Shown: piece after piece, positions 1,916 to 29,265 of the stretch
Layout: the number at the start of each line of letters is the position of its first letter
Numbering within the stretch: the first letter of the stretch is position 1
Assembly: GCF_037914945.1 (NCBI RefSeq)
Contig: NZ_CP149787.1
Location: 2,418,001-2,482,000, forward strand
Direction of reading: 5' to 3'
Length of the DNA stretch: 64,000 bases
Source of the DNA: Haloterrigena sp. KLK7
GTDB taxonomy: Archaea; Halobacteriota; Halobacteria; Halobacteriales; Natrialbaceae
The notes under the pieces: generated by a model
Told to the model about the DNA's origin: nothing
Databases searched by the model: none
The model's input: only the letters and a program-made list of their open reading frames with translations
Program-made: the position numbers and the translations under genes

Positions 1916-3478
1916 CTACGCGGTGAGCGGCTCACCGACGGAATTCGGCGGCCGCTCCTCGACGGGAACGGTGAAGTAAAACGTCGATCCATCGCCCGGC
2001 GCCGACTCGACCCAGATGTCTCCGTTGTGGCGCTCGACGATCCGTTCGCAGAGCGCCAGGCCGATGCCCGTTCCGTCGTGCTCGTCGGGGGGATGGAGGC
2101 GCTCGAACACCTCGAAAACGCGGTCGGGTTCGTCCGTGTCGATGCCGATTCCCTCGTCGCGGACGGCGATCTCCCACTCGTCCCCGTCCCGCTCGGCCGA
2201 GACGCGTACGCGGGGCGGCTCCTCGCCGCTGTATTCGATGGCGTTGTCCAGCAGGTTCCGGAACACCTGTCGAAGCTGCTCTCCGTCGCCGTAGACCTGC
2301 GGGAGCGAGTCGACCGCGATCTCGGCGTCGCTCGCTTCGATTCTCGGCCGGAGGTCAGCGCGGACGTCGCTCAGGACGGTATCCAGCTCGACGGCCTCGA
2401 ACGTGTCCGTCTCCTTGTCGACCCGGGAGTAGTCGAGCAGGGCGTCGATCATTCCGCGCATTCGATCGGCGCCGTCCACCGCGAAGTCGATGAACTCCCG
2501 GGCCTCGGCGTCGAGTTCGTCGGCGTACCGGTTCTCGAGCAGTCGGAGGTAACTCGAGATCATCCGAAGCGGTTCCTGCAGGTCGTGAGAGGCGGCGTAG
2601 GCGAACTGCTCCAACCGTTCGTTCGATTCCCGCAGATCGCGTTCGTACGCGACTCGTTCGGTGACGTCCGTGCAGGTGAGCACGGCTTTTCGCCGCTCGT
2701 CGTCCCGCAACGGTTTGCCGCTGATCAGTAGCCACACGCGCTCGCCGTCGGCTCGCTCGAACCCGATCGGACCCTCGTGAACGGTCTCCCCGTGCTCGAC
2801 GATTCGATAGGACGGACTCTCCTCCGGAGCGAGCGGCGTCCCGTCCAACCGGATCGGATCGAACAGGTCCGTGCGCTCCTCGTAGCCACCGATAGCGTCC
2901 GACGTGTACCCGAAGAGGTCCCGAATCTGATCGTTGAGGAAATCGAACGCGCCGTCGCCGTCGAGCGTCGCGATCCCGATCGGCGCCGTCTCGACGAGTT
3001 CCTCGATGAAGTTCCGTTCCTCGCGCAGCGCCTGCTCGCTCCGCTCGGCTTCCGCCGCGCGCGTGAGAGCCCGTGCTTCCATCACTCCGACCCCCAGACC
3101 GGCGATACTACCGACCGCCGTCTGCAGACCGATCTCCCGTATCGGGTCGCCGAGGGTGGCCTCGGGATTGAGCGCGAGCAGGCCGGTGACGCCGAGCAGC
3201 AGTACCAGACCACCGAAACACCAGCCGACGATGCGCGGATACCGATCGGGCGGGAGATCGCTTCGTCGTATCCGATACCCCCCGTAGAGGAGGACGACGG
3301 CGGGTCCGGCGAAGAGAACGAAATCGGCGAGCGCTTCCCTGACGGAGCTATCCGCCATCACGTCCTCGCTCACCTGAACTGCTCCCACGAGGACGAACAG
3401 TCCCCCGAGCGCCGAGACGAAGCGGATTCCGTTCGCGGTCGCGAAACGCCTCCACGGGGACATACCGTCCGTTGCCAT
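1916..3478 (-). CDS. Membrane PAS-domain sensor histidine kinase
   Basis: A 520-residue sensor kinase. The N-terminal 130 residues hold four hydrophobic helices. A PAS domain follows (IEELVETAPIGIATLD through TCTDVTERVAY). Next are the dimerisation/phosphoacceptor helix with H-box AASHDLQEPLRMI, the N-box NLLDNAIEYSG, and the ATP lid boxes RDEGIGI and GTGIGLAL, so all catalytic boxes look intact. No receiver domain is fused and no response regulator lies nearby, which is common for haloarchaeal orphan kinases. The start was placed at the ATG at 3478 (MATDGMSP); a 14-residue longer form begins with TTG at 3520 and seems less likely. The sensed signal is unknown. Confidence 0.88.
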   Translation of the reverse strand: MATDGMSPWRRFATANGIRFVSALGGLFVLVGAVQVSEDVMADSSVREALADFVLFAGPAVVLLYGGYRIRRSDLPPDRYPRIVGWCFGGLVLLLGVTGLLALNPEATLGDPIREIGLQTAVGSIAGLGVGVMEARALTRAAEAERSEQALREERNFIEELVETAPIGIATLDGDGAFDFLNDQIRDLFGYTSDAIGGYEERTDLFDPIRLDGTPLAPEESPSYRIVEHGETVHEGPIGFERADGERVWLLISGKPLRDDERRKAVLTCTDVTERVAYERDLRESNERLEQFAYAASHDLQEPLRMISSYLRLLENRYADELDAEAREFIDFAVDGADRMRGMIDALLDYSRVDKETDTFEAVELDTVLSDVRADLRPRIEASDAEIAVDSLPQVYGDGEQLRQVFRNLLDNAIEYSGEEPPRVRVSAERDGDEWEIAVRDEGIGIDTDEPDRVFEVFERLHPPDEHDGTGIGLALCERIVERHNGDIWVESAPGDGSTFYFTVPVEERPPNSVGEPLTA

Positions 3479-3589
3479 CCATCGAGTTGTGAATGTTGGG
3501 ATCGATGCGGCCGTTTCCAATAGGGCGCGACGGCGTCCCCGTCCGCTGGCCGTGAGGAGGCGGAGTCGATCGAACGGAGACGGGCGATC

Positions 3590-4366
3590 CTAGACGTCGC
3601 TCTCTTCGCTGATCTGCGGGACGCCCTGGGCCGTGATCGTCTCGCCGACGATGTACGACGAGGCCGGACTCGCGAGGAACTGCGCGAGGTCGGCGATCTC
3701 CTCGACGGTACCGATGCGGCGGGCGACCTCCTCGCGGTCGATGTTGTCGGCGGAGACGCCCATCTGGCTCTCGACGCCCGGCGTGGCGACGAAGCCGGGA
3801 GCGATGCAGTTGACGCGGACGTCGTCGTCGGCCCACTCGTAGGAGAGCGTCGTCGTGAGGTTGATGACCGCGGCCTTGGCGGCGCCGTAGGGGCTCATCA
3901 TCGGCGAGCCCCGCTGGCCGGCGACGCTGGCCAGGTTGATCACCGAGCCGCCGCCGTCCTTGAGGTGCTCCGCGGCGGCGTGGGTACAGTGGTACGTGCC
4001 GTTGACGTTGATGTCGATGATCGTCTCCCAGCCGTTCGGCGAGATGTCGTCGAAGTCGGCCATGAAGGAGGCGCCGGCGTTGTTGACCAGCACGTCCAGC
4101 CCGCCGAACTCCTCGACGGTCGCCTCGACCAGCGCCTCGACGGCGTCGCGGTCGGTCACGTCGCATTCGACGGCCAGCGCCTCGCCGGGGCGCTCGCTCT
4201 CGTTGATCTCCTCGGCGACGGGGTCGACGTTCTCCTGTTCGCGCGAACAGACGACGACGTCGACGCCGTCCGCGGCGAACCGCTTCGCGATGCCCCGCCC
4301 GATGCCGCTCGAGGAGCCCGTGACGATGGCGACGTCGCCGTCGACGCTGAACTGCTCGGTGCTCAT
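3590..4366 (-). CDS. Short-chain dehydrogenase/reductase (SDR)
   Basis: A 258-residue classical SDR. The NAD(P)-binding motif TGSSSGIGRGIAKRF sits near residues 16-30, DVLVNNAGAS near 92, the catalytic Ser in SVAGQRGSP and the YGAAK active-site Tyr/Lys follow, and IAPGFVATP closes the core. It resembles FabG-like 3-oxoacyl reductases and glucose 1-dehydrogenase-like enzymes, so it could reduce a ketone or acyl intermediate. It is divergent from the alpha-hydroxy-acid oxidase at 4553, with a shared intergenic region of about 190 bp. The start ATG at 4366 has a TATA-like element (minus-strand CTAACAATGG) about 30-40 bp upstream. The exact substrate cannot be read from sequence. Confidence 0.9.
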   Translation of the reverse strand: MSTEQFSVDGDVAIVTGSSSGIGRGIAKRFAADGVDVVVCSREQENVDPVAEEINESERPGEALAVECDVTDRDAVEALVEATVEEFGGLDVLVNNAGASFMADFDDISPNGWETIIDINVNGTYHCTHAAAEHLKDGGGSVINLASVAGQRGSPMMSPYGAAKAAVINLTTTLSYEWADDDVRVNCIAPGFVATPGVESQMGVSADNIDREEVARRIGTVEEIADLAQFLASPASSYIVGETITAQGVPQISEESDV

Positions 4367-23277: not shown

Positions 23278-24219
23278 ATGGACTTGGAGACTGCCAAAGA
23301 ACGCGCGGGGCCGCGGGAGTTCAGCCCCGCCGACGACCTCCCCGAGGAGTACCGGAAAGCGGCCACGCGGATGATCGAGTTCCACGCGAACAGCGAGATC
23401 ATGGGCGCGTACTTAGAGCGCCCGTTCATCCGTCAGGCGCCGAGTATCGATCGCAAGCTGGCGTTCTCCGCGAAGGTGCAAGACGAGATCGGCCACGGAC
23501 AGCTGCTCTACCGCGCCGCCGAGTCGCTGGGCGTCAAGACGCGCGAGGAGATGCTGGACGACCTCGCCAACGGCGACGGGAAGTTCTTGAACTGCTTCCA
23601 CTATCCGATGGAGGACTGGGTCGAGACGCCGATGATCGCCTTCTTCGTCGACGGCGCGGCGATGCGTCGGCAGGCGACGCTCCGACGGACCAGCTGGGAG
23701 CCGTACGCCCACGCGATGGACAAGGTGTGTTTCGAGGAGGGGTTCCACGTCAAACACGGCGAGGACATCCTCGCGGAACTCATGTCGGGCTCGAAGAAGG
23801 AACAGCGGATGACTCAGGAGGCCTTCGAGGAGTGGTGGCCCCGCATCATCCAGTTCTTCGGTCCGACCGACGACAAGAGCACCCACCACGACTTCGCGGC
23901 CTCGGTGGGGCTCAAACAGCAGTCCAACGACCAACTGCGCAACGCGTTCCTCGACCAGTACATCCCCAAGGCCCGAAAGTACGGCCTCGAGATCCCGGAC
24001 GAGCCCCGGATTCGCGAGCGGGACGACGGCACCTACGAGGTCGCGGAGGACGACCTCGACTGGGACGAGTTCTTCACGATCGCGAAGAACGACTACGAAC
24101 CCGGTCTGGACCAGATCAACGGCCGTAAGGCCGCACAGGAGGCCGTTCAGTGGGTCCGCGATACGATCGAGGGAGACGCTTCCGCCGCCGGCGGCCACGC
24201 GCCGCAGGCGGCCGACTGA
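23278..24219 (+). CDS. paaA: 1,2-phenylacetyl-CoA epoxidase, catalytic subunit PaaA
   Basis: A 313-residue ferritin-like diiron oxygenase subunit. The metal-binding helices are visible: TRMIEFHANSEIMGAY, FSAKVQDEIGHGQLLYRAA with the E-x2-H pair, and MDKVCFEEGFHVKHGED with the second E-x2-H. The length agrees with bacterial PaaA. Together with PaaC and PaaB it forms the complex that converts phenylacetyl-CoA to the 1,2-epoxide using O2 and electrons. It starts the tight paaABCD operon, and PaaB follows after two bases. No oxygenase reductase (PaaE) gene is encoded nearby. Confidence 0.96.
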   Translation: MDLETAKERAGPREFSPADDLPEEYRKAATRMIEFHANSEIMGAYLERPFIRQAPSIDRKLAFSAKVQDEIGHGQLLYRAAESLGVKTREEMLDDLANGDGKFLNCFHYPMEDWVETPMIAFFVDGAAMRRQATLRRTSWEPYAHAMDKVCFEEGFHVKHGEDILAELMSGSKKEQRMTQEAFEEWWPRIIQFFGPTDDKSTHHDFAASVGLKQQSNDQLRNAFLDQYIPKARKYGLEIPDEPRIRERDDGTYEVAEDDLDWDEFFTIAKNDYEPGLDQINGRKAAQEAVQWVRDTIEGDASAAGGHAPQAAD

Positions 24220-24221
24220 CC

Positions 24222-24539
24222 ATGATATGGGAAGTATTCCGCCAGGAGAAGACCGGCCGATATCACACGCACTGTGGCAACGTCCACGCGCCGGACCGCG
24301 AGATGGCCAAGCAGTTCGCCGCCATCCAGCACGGTCGGCGCAAGCCGACCAACAGCCTCTGGGTCGTTCCCAGGGAGGAGATCGGCGAGATCGACTCCGA
24401 AGACGTCGCGTTCGGCGGGACGACCGACAAGAGCTACCGGTGGGCGACCGCGTACAACACGACCGGCACGGACGCGAGCGAGGTCGTCGAGTCCGAAGAC
24501 GAACAGGCGACCGCCGAACGACAGCGGGGTGACGACTGA
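24222..24539 (+). CDS. paaB: 1,2-phenylacetyl-CoA epoxidase subunit PaaB
   Basis: A 105-residue small subunit beginning IWEVFRQEKTGRYHTHCGNVHAPD and containing the conserved AAIQHGRRKPTNSLWVVP segment. PaaB bridges PaaA-PaaC units in the oligomer and has no catalytic residues. The start ATG at 24222 comes two bases after the paaA stop; the stop overlaps the paaC ATG by one base. The C-terminal 20 residues are an acidic tail (ESEDEQATAERQRGDD) beyond the bacterial length. Confidence 0.95.
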   Translation: MIWEVFRQEKTGRYHTHCGNVHAPDREMAKQFAAIQHGRRKPTNSLWVVPREEIGEIDSEDVAFGGTTDKSYRWATAYNTTGTDASEVVESEDEQATAERQRGDD

Positions 24540-25411
24540 TGGCGGCGAGCCTCGAGAACCCCGACGAACTCGACGAGCGCGAGCGGACGGCCCTCGAGAC
24601 GCTGCTGAAGCGGCTGGCCGACGACGAGTTCGTGCTGGCCGAACGCTACACCGAGTGGCAGGTCCGCGCGCCGAGCCTCGAGTCCGACCTCGCGCTGGCG
24701 AACAACGCCCAGGACGAACTCGGCCACGCCCGCCTGTGGTACGACGTCCTCGGCGACGTCGGCCTCGAGGAGCGGGACCTCGTCTACGAGCGCGATCCCG
24801 GCGACTTCCGGCACAGCACGCTGGTCGAACTCCCCTTCGAGGAGGGCGACTGGGCCGACGCCGTCCTCCGGTCGTACCTCTACGACGTCGCCGAGGACCT
24901 CCGGCTCGAGGCGCTCGTCGACTCCACCCACCCGAAGATCGCCGACCGCGTCGGGAAGATCCGCAGCGAGGAGGAGTACCACCTCGAGCACGCCCAGAAC
25001 TGGCTGGAGCGGCTCGCCGACGACGGCGAGGGCCGCGAGCGCCTGCAGGACGCGCTCGACCGGCTGTTCCCGTACGCGTTCACGCTCTTCGAACCCGTCG
25101 ACCCCGACGTCGAAGACGATATCGTCGACCTCGGGCTTCGCGACGCGACCCTCGAGGAACTCGGTGAGGAGTGGCTGTCGATCGTCGTCCCGTACCTCGA
25201 GTCGCTCGACCTCGAGCTGCCGGTGGACGGGCGCGCGGGCGACGATACCGACGAGTTCGAGTTCGAAGTGACCGAGGACATGCTCCCCGAGGAGCGCGGT
25301 CGCGACGGGACCCACACCGACGCGTGGTTCGACCTCTACGAGGAGTTCACCCACACCTACCGCGAACTCGGGCGCACCGAGACGACCAGAATCATGGACA
25401 AACCAGAGTGA
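24539..25411 (+). CDS. paaC: 1,2-phenylacetyl-CoA epoxidase subunit PaaC
   Basis: A 290-residue ferritin-like structural partner of PaaA. Helices include LLKRLADDEFVLAERYTEWQ, LALANNAQDELGHARLWYDV, and RVGKIRSEEEYHLEHAQNW. The E-x2-H patterns are partly kept although bacterial PaaC does not bind iron. It overlaps paaB and paaD by one base each, indicating translational coupling and fixed stoichiometry. The length is somewhat greater than the E. coli protein because of acidic insertions in the C-terminal third. Confidence 0.95.
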   Translation: MAASLENPDELDERERTALETLLKRLADDEFVLAERYTEWQVRAPSLESDLALANNAQDELGHARLWYDVLGDVGLEERDLVYERDPGDFRHSTLVELPFEEGDWADAVLRSYLYDVAEDLRLEALVDSTHPKIADRVGKIRSEEEYHLEHAQNWLERLADDGEGRERLQDALDRLFPYAFTLFEPVDPDVEDDIVDLGLRDATLEELGEEWLSIVVPYLESLDLELPVDGRAGDDTDEFEFEVTEDMLPEERGRDGTHTDAWFDLYEEFTHTYRELGRTETTRIMDKPE

Positions 25412-25827
25412 TGAGTAGCAATATTCCGGACGACACCGACGCCACGCCCTGTGCGTACACCGACTACGACGAGGGCGAGGCCGTAGACGACCTTCCTGCG
25501 ACCGGCGCCGACGCGACCGGCCTCGCGGCCGACGTGTGGGACGCCCTCTACGGGATCGAAGACCCCGAGATGCCGATCAGCATCGTCGATCTCGGCCTGA
25601 TATACGGCGTCGACGTCGACGACGGCGCCGTGACCGTCGACATGACGCTCACCTACTCGGGGTGTCCCGCTCGAGACATGCTCACCGAGGACGTCGAAGC
25701 CGCGGTCGCCGCCGTCGACGGCGTCGACGACGTCGAGTTGCGACTCGTCTGGAGTCCGGAGTGGACCGTCGAGATGGTGACCGAACGGGGGGAAGAAGAC
25801 CTGCGAGAGTTCGGGCTCAGCGTATGA
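25411..25827 (+). CDS. paaD: PaaD, MIP18/DUF59 domain part
   Basis: A 138-residue protein with a 45-residue acidic N-terminal extension followed by a MIP18 (DUF59) domain: VWDALYGIEDPEMPISIVDLGLIYGVDV and the conserved cysteine in LTYSGCPARDM. The C-terminus ends LREFGLSV, with no zinc ribbon. In bacteria PaaD carries both the MIP18 domain and a C-terminal Cys-rich domain in one chain and is thought to help iron-sulfur or diiron cluster assembly for the epoxidase. Here the Cys-rich part is a separate gene overlapping by four bases. The start overlaps the paaC stop by one base. Confidence 0.92.
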   Translation: MSSNIPDDTDATPCAYTDYDEGEAVDDLPATGADATGLAADVWDALYGIEDPEMPISIVDLGLIYGVDVDDGAVTVDMTLTYSGCPARDMLTEDVEAAVAAVDGVDDVELRLVWSPEWTVEMVTERGEEDLREFGLSV

Positions 25828-25994
25828 GACGGAACCTCGATCCGAGCGTCACGACCAGCGGGGAGGCGACGGGCGCCGAGTGTCCCTACTGCGAGTCGAC
25901 GGACACCGTCCGCGAACACCCGAAGGGGCCGTCGCTCTGCCGGTCGATGCACTACTGTAACAGTTGCGAGCAACCGTTCGAGAAGTTCGAGTGA
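25824..25994 (+). CDS. Zinc-ribbon protein, split-off C-terminal part of PaaD
   Basis: A 56-residue protein, too short for most gene callers. It contains CPYCESTDTVREHPKGPSLC and YCNSCEQPFEKFE, i.e. two CxxC pairs plus an extra Cys, matching the zinc-ribbon tail of bacterial PaaD. Its ATG overlaps the paaD stop (ATGA), so the two halves are translated together. The order and content show that the single bacterial protein is encoded as two chains here. A hairpin (26000-26021) immediately downstream marks the operon end. Confidence 0.9.
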   Translation: MRRNLDPSVTTSGEATGAECPYCESTDTVREHPKGPSLCRSMHYCNSCEQPFEKFE

Positions 25995-25999
25995 TCGGC

Positions 26000-26021
26000 C
26001 TCGAGCCCGCGAGGGCTCGAG
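26000..26021 (+). terminator. Hairpin terminator after the paaABCD operon
   Basis: A 9-bp GC-rich stem CTCGAGCCC / GGGCTCGAG around a GCGA loop, six bases after the zinc-ribbon stop and before the next promoter region. It fits an operon-end structure, though haloarchaeal termination often relies on T-runs, which are missing here. Confidence 0.45.
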
Positions 26022-26078
26022 ACCGGCGACCGAGCGAAGAATTTTGCTACTCGATACCGTGCCCTAGCGCGGGCGACC

Positions 26079-27362
26079 ATGTCAGAGACTATCCAACACA
26101 CTCGCCGGGAGGAGCTGCGGGAACTGCAGTCCGAACGACTCCGCGAGACCGTCGCGTACGCCTACGAGAACGTCCCCTTTTACCGGGTAGCCCTGGACGA
26201 GGCCGGCGTCGCGCCGTCGAATATCGAGCAGATCGACGACGTCCGAATGCTTCCGTTCACGACGAAGGAGGACTTCCGCGACGAGTACCCCGACGGCCTC
26301 TTCGCCGTCGACGACGCCGACGTCCGGCGGATCCACGCCTCCTCGGGCACGACGGGCAAACCCAAGATCGTCGCCTACACCGAGGACGACCTCGAGCTGT
26401 GGGACGAGGTGATGGCGCGGTCGATGGACGCCGCGGGCCTCGAGCCGGGCGAGACGTTTCAGAACGCCTACGGCTACGGGCTCTTTACCGGCGGGCTCGG
26501 CTTCCACGGCGGTGCCGAAGCGTTCGGGGCGACGGTGATCCCCGCGAGCGGCGGGAACACCCAGCGCCAGGTCGAACTCGCGCGCGACCTCGAGAGCGAC
26601 GCGATCGGCTGTACGCCGTCGTACGCGCTCTACTTCGCCGAGACGGCCGCGGAGATGGGCGTCGATCCGCACGAACTGCCGCTCTCGACGGTGCTCTACG
26701 GCGCCGAACCCTGTACGGAACCGATGCGGGCGGAGATCGAAGAGCGTCTCGACGCGACCGGCATCGAGAACTACGGACTCTCCGAACTGATCGGTCCGGG
26801 CGTCGCCGTCGAGTGCCGCGAGGCCCAGAACGGGATGCACATCTGGGAGGATCACTTCTATCCCGAGGTCGTCGATCCCCGAACCGGCGAGGTCCTCCCG
26901 GAGGGCGAGGAGGGCGAACTCGTGCTCACGTCGCTCACGAAGGGGGCCCTGCCCGTGCTCCGCTACCGAACCGGCGACCTCACCACGCTCACGACCGACG
27001 AGTGCGAGTGCGGTCGCACGATGGTCCGAATGGACGGCGTCACCGGCCGCGCCGACGACCTCATCATCGTCCGCGGCGTCAACCTCTACCCGAGCCAGAT
27101 CGAAGCCGTCGTCCTCGAGTTCGAGGCGGTCGCGCCCTACTACCGCATCGATCTCGATCGCGAGGACACGCTCGACACCCTCGAGCTCACGATCGAACTG
27201 GCCGACGACTTCGACGGCGACCGGGACCGACTCCGAGGCGAGATCCTCGAGCGACTACAGAACGCGCTGTCGTTCACGCCCGACGAACTCGAACTGGTCG
27301 AGTACGGGACCCTCGAGCGAACGGAGGTCGGGAAGGTCAAACGCGTCTACGATCACCGCTGA
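26079..27362 (+). CDS. paaK: Phenylacetate-CoA ligase (copy 2)
   Basis: A 427-residue PaaK with the same motifs as copy 1: LPFTTKEDFRDEYPDGLF, IHASSGTTGKPKIVAYTE, NAYGYGLFTGGLGFHGG, VLYGAEPCTEPMRAEIEE, ENYGLSELIGPGVAVE and GRADDLIIVRGVNLYPSQIE. It forms phenylacetyl-CoA (or a related aryl-CoA), the substrate of the epoxidase encoded just upstream. Positions 26253-26372 are identical, base for base, to the complement of 15239-15358 in copy 1, while flanks differ. The two copies may have different substrate ranges or inducers. Confidence 0.95.
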   Translation: MSETIQHTRREELRELQSERLRETVAYAYENVPFYRVALDEAGVAPSNIEQIDDVRMLPFTTKEDFRDEYPDGLFAVDDADVRRIHASSGTTGKPKIVAYTEDDLELWDEVMARSMDAAGLEPGETFQNAYGYGLFTGGLGFHGGAEAFGATVIPASGGNTQRQVELARDLESDAIGCTPSYALYFAETAAEMGVDPHELPLSTVLYGAEPCTEPMRAEIEERLDATGIENYGLSELIGPGVAVECREAQNGMHIWEDHFYPEVVDPRTGEVLPEGEEGELVLTSLTKGALPVLRYRTGDLTTLTTDECECGRTMVRMDGVTGRADDLIIVRGVNLYPSQIEAVVLEFEAVAPYYRIDLDREDTLDTLELTIELADDFDGDRDRLRGEILERLQNALSFTPDELELVEYGTLERTEVGKVKRVYDHR

Positions 27363-28941: not shown

Positions 28942-28965
28942 ACGCTCGATATCACGCGGAATCGG

Positions 28966-28971
28966 CTTAAT
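28966..28971 (-). promoter_or_regulatory. TATA box of the LLM oxidoreductase gene
   Basis: Minus-strand ATTAAG centred about 27 bp before the ATG at 28941. Confidence 0.45.
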
Positions 28972-29032
28972 TCTTGGCGAGTCGGCTATTCGTCGGGCTC
29001 GAGCGTAGTGTAGCGTTCTCCGGAGTCATCGA

Positions 29033-29223
29033 GGACACTACGAAAGCCCCTGGCCCCTTTCATTCCCGCCCGTACCGGCTGGTCGAGCAAGCCACCGCGG
29101 GTGGGAGTGAAAGGGGGCTGGAACCGTCCGGTCGATGGACTCGTTGCCGTTGTGCGCGCTCCCTCGGTCGCGTGCGTACGTCGTCCGCCTTCCCGGACGG
29201 TTCCAGGGCCTTTCGCGGTGTTC
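29033..29223 (+). ncRNA. Candidate structured RNA or MITE-like element (three-stem fold)
   Basis: Within a 324-bp gene-free gap, three nested pairings can be drawn by eye. An outer stem joins 29033-29053 with 29203-29223 (two mismatches). Stem A joins 29054-29072 with 29098-29116 over 19 pairs, two of them G-U. Stem B joins 29118-29131 with 29193-29206 over 14 perfect pairs; four bases (29203-29206) could serve either stem B or the outer stem. Four wobble positions read as G-U on the plus strand and would be A-C mismatches on the minus strand, which favours a plus-strand RNA. The terminal inverted arrangement also fits a non-autonomous transposable element. No known RNA family was recognised. 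Confidence 0.5.
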
Positions 29224-29265
29224 GTGACGAGTTCACCGGCGTTCGAGGTGTCTCGAACCGGGCGG

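Follow-up and report, generated by a model that had tools for sequence, protein, structure and literature searches.

Several families of small non-coding repeats resemble the element described here. The SMR of Haloquadratum are haloarchaeal repeats with prominent inverted ends that have neither target duplications nor a transposase and that nest in palindromes; SMR-A, of ~110 bp, is mostly >95% alike within type (PMC3119063). PATE are palindrome-associated, related to the IS605 type, and carry neither terminal inverted repeats nor target duplications (PMC3119063). Together with the MITEs of Haloquadratum and the bacterial REP sequences, these were the only related work in the literature searched, and the terminal sequence of our element was absent from the relevant part of it. 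The element lies in a 64,000-nucleotide stretch of the Haloterrigena sp. KLK7 chromosome (hereafter the window) at positions 29033-29223, with no strand assigned to it or to its parts, and is a degenerate family copy of the form P1-A-B-P1' that has lost its second B hairpin. We consider it likely that this feature is an old copy, since rearranged and in part deleted, of a family of non-coding, non-autonomous palindromic DNA elements that are interspersed in haloarchaeal genomes class-wide and are apparently undescribed in the literature searched.

A reading made from the sequence alone had placed three stems here, and re-pairing the bases returned the same coordinates. The outer stem P1 joins 29033-29053, for which the family consensus is AACACCACGAAAGCCCCTG, to 29203-29223, an arm delimited by stem pairing and the end logo, with 17 Watson-Crick pairs, two G.T pairs, one A-C and one C-C mismatch. 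The A hairpin (29054-29116) has arms at 29054-29072 and 29098-29116 around a loop at 29073-29097 and contains 17 Watson-Crick and two G.T pairs; in the alignment its arm, GCCCCTTTCAxTCCCACCC, is kept class-wide in sequence. The basal stem of the B hairpin (29118-29131 with 29193-29206) is Watson-Crick at all 14 positions, and across the family its complementarity is kept while its sequence is free. Inside B lie two conserved unpaired segments, one on the 5' side at 29139-29147 (family CTCGCTGCG; window CTCGTTGC, followed by a short insertion) and one on the 3' side at 29172-29183 (family GTGCTTRCGTCG; window GTGCGTACGTCG). The final four bases of the 3' arm of B, CCAG at 29203-29206, also belong to P1. 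They had been taken for a possible switch and are indeed common to two stems, but sequence reading identified them as the CTG/CAG feet of every module.

The sequence-only reading further counted four G-U, one A-C and one C-C position on the plus strand, which is exact, and took this bias as a sign of selection for RNA pairing. A functional RNA, either a leader or a small RNA, would then be made from the plus strand. Folding of the window copy gave -125.6 kcal/mol (z -6.7) for the plus strand and a somewhat poorer -115.1 kcal/mol (z -5.1) for the minus strand, and none of 200 shuffles was as good on either. However, the gap that holds the element (28942-29265) is flanked by two minus-strand genes, so read-through RNA would be of the minus strand, where the four wobbles are A-C. 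Elsewhere in the window, by inspection only, ORFs at 23278-27362 resemble a phenylacetate-degradation cluster (PaaA-, PaaB-, PaaC- and PaaD-like, with a PaaK-like ligase).

Copies in haloarchaea, which the same reading had suggested looking for with BLASTn, were readily found, and the family is widely dispersed. In the genome of the window, blastn returned one good copy and there is a solo end at C1:74017, which by sequence reading (L046 against L033/L038) sits in a neighbourhood that contains other copies in relatives. Matches were present in all six genomes of the genus, in 71 of 125 genomes of the Natrialbaceae set and, with a complete copy as the query, in 220 of the 391 genomes of the class, spread over 63 of the 86 genera; the richest genomes have ~6-7 distinct sites each after overlapping matches were merged. 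The same units were recognized at all 20 sites read outside the Natrialbaceae, 14 of which carry the full standard element. Exact scanning of 84,980 species for the terminal 18-mer returned Natrialbaceae, including Natronococcus, Halopiger, Haloterrigena salina, Natronorubrum and Natribaculum; four unrelated single matches outside this family were judged to be chance. Phages gave no match to the element, and three exact 17-mer matches in viral contigs, with no element around them, were likewise attributed to chance. Rfam holds no family for the element and returned sub-threshold miRNA hairpins only.

Comparison of the copies revealed a modular architecture. In intact copies the outer stem P1 encloses three hairpins (B1, A and B2, the last being an inverted B), and such copies read AACACCACGAAAGCCCCTG - B1 - CAGCCCCTTTCAxTCCCACCC - loop - GGGTGGGAxTGAAAGGGGCTG - B2 - CAGGGGCTTTCGTGGTGTT. 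The full form measures ~250-270 bp, complete copies being given as about 250-430 bp, and is an inverted pair of hairpin units of ~125 bp, each composed of GAAAGCCCC, a B hairpin and the A arm GCCCCTTTCAxTCCCACCC. The three-way layout proposed earlier is therefore present in the window but is not the native shape of the family, whose intact copies are four-armed. The window copy retains P1, A and a single B; its second B is missing, and the one that remains stands in an unusual orientation that reading found in only two of 114 B hairpins (this one and one in L093). Modules are swapped and permuted among copies, partial copies with A only or B only exist, and outside the Natrialbaceae P1 varies on both sides together (CACCTC, CAGCAA, CAGCCA, CAGCAT, CAGCGT). 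The unpaired B segments CTCGCTGCG and GTGCTTRCGTCG are conserved in the logo of 102 modelled hairpins.

Some copies carry additional sequence. Extra palindromes recur nested in B (for example TTCGAGAGAGC..GCTCTCTCG..GACGC..GCGTC..GAAC; L101, L118, L119, L121, L122, L082 and L124), with elements reaching >400 bp, and at ~5900-6000 of L070 another small palindromic repeat (ATAATGATGGCTGTGACTGGTTGCCGCC...GGCGGTAACGACTCACAGCTATCGTTAT) lies inside the A hairpin of one copy. A further repeated block (GAGCGAGTCGGCTGGGGAGGGCGTGGCGATCCCCTG...) adjoins truncated or chimeric copies, most of them in Natronococcus (genus g19; L067, L074, L075, L086, L175, L176, L185, L186 and L188). Two copies at different loci of one genome, G306 (L224 and L225), have apparently identical B1 hairpins and differ in P1, A and B2, which is module copying between elements.

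To describe the pairing across the family, each B basal-stem arm was compared with its own partner arm and with the arms of other copies, giving 88.7% and 50.7% Watson-Crick pairs, respectively. The arms of the two B's within one element are only 44% alike, indicating that the pairing is that of a local hairpin and ruling out long terminal repeats in which B pairs with B'. When 36 intact copies were aligned (A1), the RNAalifold consensus had 74 pairs, of which 47 showed compensatory double changes, so that conserved structure with abundant covarying substitutions, as the sequence-only reading had asked of a conserved RNA, is present. The covariation score was 0.464, whereas slid structures reached 0.078 at most, and all five covariation measures exceeded 500 of 500 shuffles; the shuffles leave relatedness in, and the slid-structure control retains it. 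The covariation is almost exclusively Watson-Crick, since one-sided (G-U) changes are nearly absent beside 466 cells with double changes in A1.

The strong consensus fold with its compensatory changes is what a functional RNA would produce, and the same architecture would arise whichever strand was transcribed, because the B-A-B(inverted) layout is identical read from either strand. Nevertheless, the bias that had suggested an RNA disappears at the level of the family. The stems of 74 Natrialbaceae copies hold 103 G.T and 98 A.C pairs, and there is no per-copy strand excess (chi2 65.0, 65 df, p 0.48) in a test that by calculation detects a bias of ~80:20 and not a mild one. Double changes with almost no G-U, together with equal G.T and A.C, favour hairpins kept as DNA and argue against a stranded RNA, and with both window neighbours on the minus strand we regard a plus-strand RNA as very improbable. 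The hint given by the wobbles of one copy (four against one) that the family does not bear out calls for caution with such counts. These data point to hairpins that are maintained as DNA, and a shape that is kept while the letters of its stems turn over offers a natural test for selection on DNA, rather than RNA, hairpins.

Complementarity that is nearly Watson-Crick only could also come about with no selection at all, if template switching at palindromes or gene conversion keeps the arms complementary, and the copying of modules between elements, as in the two G306 copies that share one B hairpin, and their inversion or permutation would fit such a process. Yet the same process would be expected to remove the mismatches of the internal loop in B as well, and this loop is conserved as unpaired across the family. 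Simple palindrome repair does not explain the conserved unpaired B segments, and we find this account barely credible.

The ends of the element are sharply bounded and conserved (AACACCACGAAAGCCCC in the end logo), and both are present as terminal inverted repeats in 65 of 74 copies; the stem foot reads AACACCACGAAAG in the same logo, without a GTAG or CGTC tag. Such ends, the concerted variation of P1 on both sides between families and the many neighbours would suit a conventional MITE, mobilised in trans by a DDE transposon whose terminal inverted repeat is P1, with hairpins that are incidental. However, no target-site duplication was detectable over 79 copies (best z 2.3 among ~2000 length/offset combinations), and 22 haloarchaeal loci, each 8 kb long at most, held no transposase between paired ends. 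One filled/empty pair at the window site is compatible with a short shared GAG, and at two further sites the flanks were too divergent for an occupied/empty comparison. Since no target duplication marks the sites, insertion is deduced from dispersal and occupancy and not from a signature. The element is too short to code, and Y1 transposase (PF01797) matches two places in the window genome (G000), neither of them near the element. The MITE account also leaves the covariation of the B stems and the conserved unpaired loops unexplained, and we hold it to be unlikely. A non-autonomous transposon with inverted ends, the main alternative of the sequence-only reading, thus came closer than its RNA proposal, although the target-site duplications expected of one are missing.

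At the window site, the family persists vertically and decays. The orthologous gap is full in six relatives (G004, G107, G104, G089, G086 and G094), partial in four (G093, G003, G005 and G109), reduced to the ends in three (G002, G091 and G021) and empty in two (G088 and G092); the empty sites could be precise losses. G104 has a B hairpin with the arms of the window copy, GGAACCGTCCGG, in the same strand orientation but ahead of A, so that between the two the order of A and B is permuted and the window lacks the other B. The shared B arms and the permuted order indicate that the window copy is an inherited, rearranged relic, probably without present function.

The surroundings of the copies were then compared. 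Element-bearing gaps were 38 tandem, 8 convergent and 24 divergent, against 77, 24 and 22 for background gaps, as approximate counts from a home-made gene caller. In 15 of 63 independent downstream genes the element ends 90-94 bp upstream of the start codon, with at most 4 in any other 5-bp bin, and the distance from a stop codon to the element downstream of it is 29 bp or more, commonly 41-48 bp. In the window, 28942-29032 is the part of the gap cited with this start-codon distance peak. The peak at ~91 bp may come from preferred insertion at this distance, from purifying selection near promoters or from a function, and a role for the host could stand in place of mobility or next to it. The peak and the long persistence at orthologous sites speak for a cis-acting DNA element useful to the host (serving as an upstream promoter element, as an insulator or for protein loading) that was retained after its dispersal. 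Against this, the window site has been lost or has decayed in several close relatives, genus mates included, and there is no fixed gene partner between families, neighbour genes being common to Natrialbaceae orthologs and mostly not shared between families. We consider such a role quite unlikely.

Several plasmid matches cover only ~110 bp, corresponding to one half-unit in a fixed orientation. Downstream of the half-unit, six plasmids from six organisms carry a structured non-coding stretch that is conserved and then a gene for an OB-fold 'DNA-binding protein' of ~290-300 codons, whose start lies ~550-650 bp from the half-unit. This region matches 164 plasmid records, 44 of them over at least 80%, and automatic parsing plus inspection by eye located the half-unit in 55 of 56 such loci, the exception being L314. 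The C-terminal OB fold of the protein gives only weak matches to models of replication factor A and SSB, and viral contigs yielded no relative of the protein. The structured leader of ~500 nt is highly conserved on many haloarchaeal plasmids (L268-L273 at ~3000-3650, L278-L312 and L315-L327); its strand bias is weak and varies with the strand folded, and neither half-unit nor leader matches Rfam. No right-hand partner of the half-unit was found in four plasmid stretches of 23-41 kb. On the sense strand of the gene, the plasmid B stem has 19 A-C against 7 G-T (p 0.03, relatives counted separately), so a sense RNA is not favoured here either. It is a tentative, rather doubtful idea that the B unit is a haloarchaeal module of hairpin ssDNA that serves the OB-fold gene, for example as a promoter or initiation site on the single strand upon entry of plasmids in that form, and that inverted pairs of this unit seeded chromosomes class-wide, preferentially ~91 bp upstream of genes; the promoter or initiation site is speculation from position (cf. 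PMC11541004). The half-unit beside the conserved leader and OB-fold gene nonetheless provides a concrete lead to a binder or mover of the family.

Returning to a dispersed palindromic DNA family, its full form can fold into the outer stem and three hairpins, and its copies probably spread non-autonomously in the manner of REP/BIME pairs or the haloarchaeal small mobile repeats. The hairpins would matter as DNA, single-stranded or cruciform. We infer that they are recognised by a protein, for which the loop of B, conserved as unpaired, would be the contact. A factor encoded by the element or by the host may disperse the copies.

Frpo of F-type plasmids (PMC11541004) resembles the plasmid arrangement in position only, as hairpin DNA before a gene of the ssDNA-binding type on plasmids with transfer-like genes. 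The terminal inverted repeats are shared with MITEs, whose target-site duplication was not detectable in the family. PATE are also haloarchaeal non-coding palindromes without target duplications, but the present family has inverted ends. With SMR it shares inverted ends, the lack of target duplications and of a transposase gene, and nested insertions into palindromes; it differs, compared by SMR description only, in being divergent and class-wide, with covarying hairpins and a length of about 250-430 bp. Like REP/BIME (PMC3733652), it comprises small, dispersed, non-coding intergenic hairpin units in many copies, single or in inverted pairs, for which the palindromic form matters and which adjoin a gene that may act on them. 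Unlike REP/BIME, it is archaeal, its units are ~125 bp instead of 20-40, the stem foot bears no GTAG/CGTC tag, and the plasmid neighbour gene encodes an OB-fold protein instead of a RAYT tyrosine transposase. The best reading is therefore a palindromic non-autonomous repeat that is REP/BIME- or SMR-like and, with SMR compared by description, stands outside any named family.
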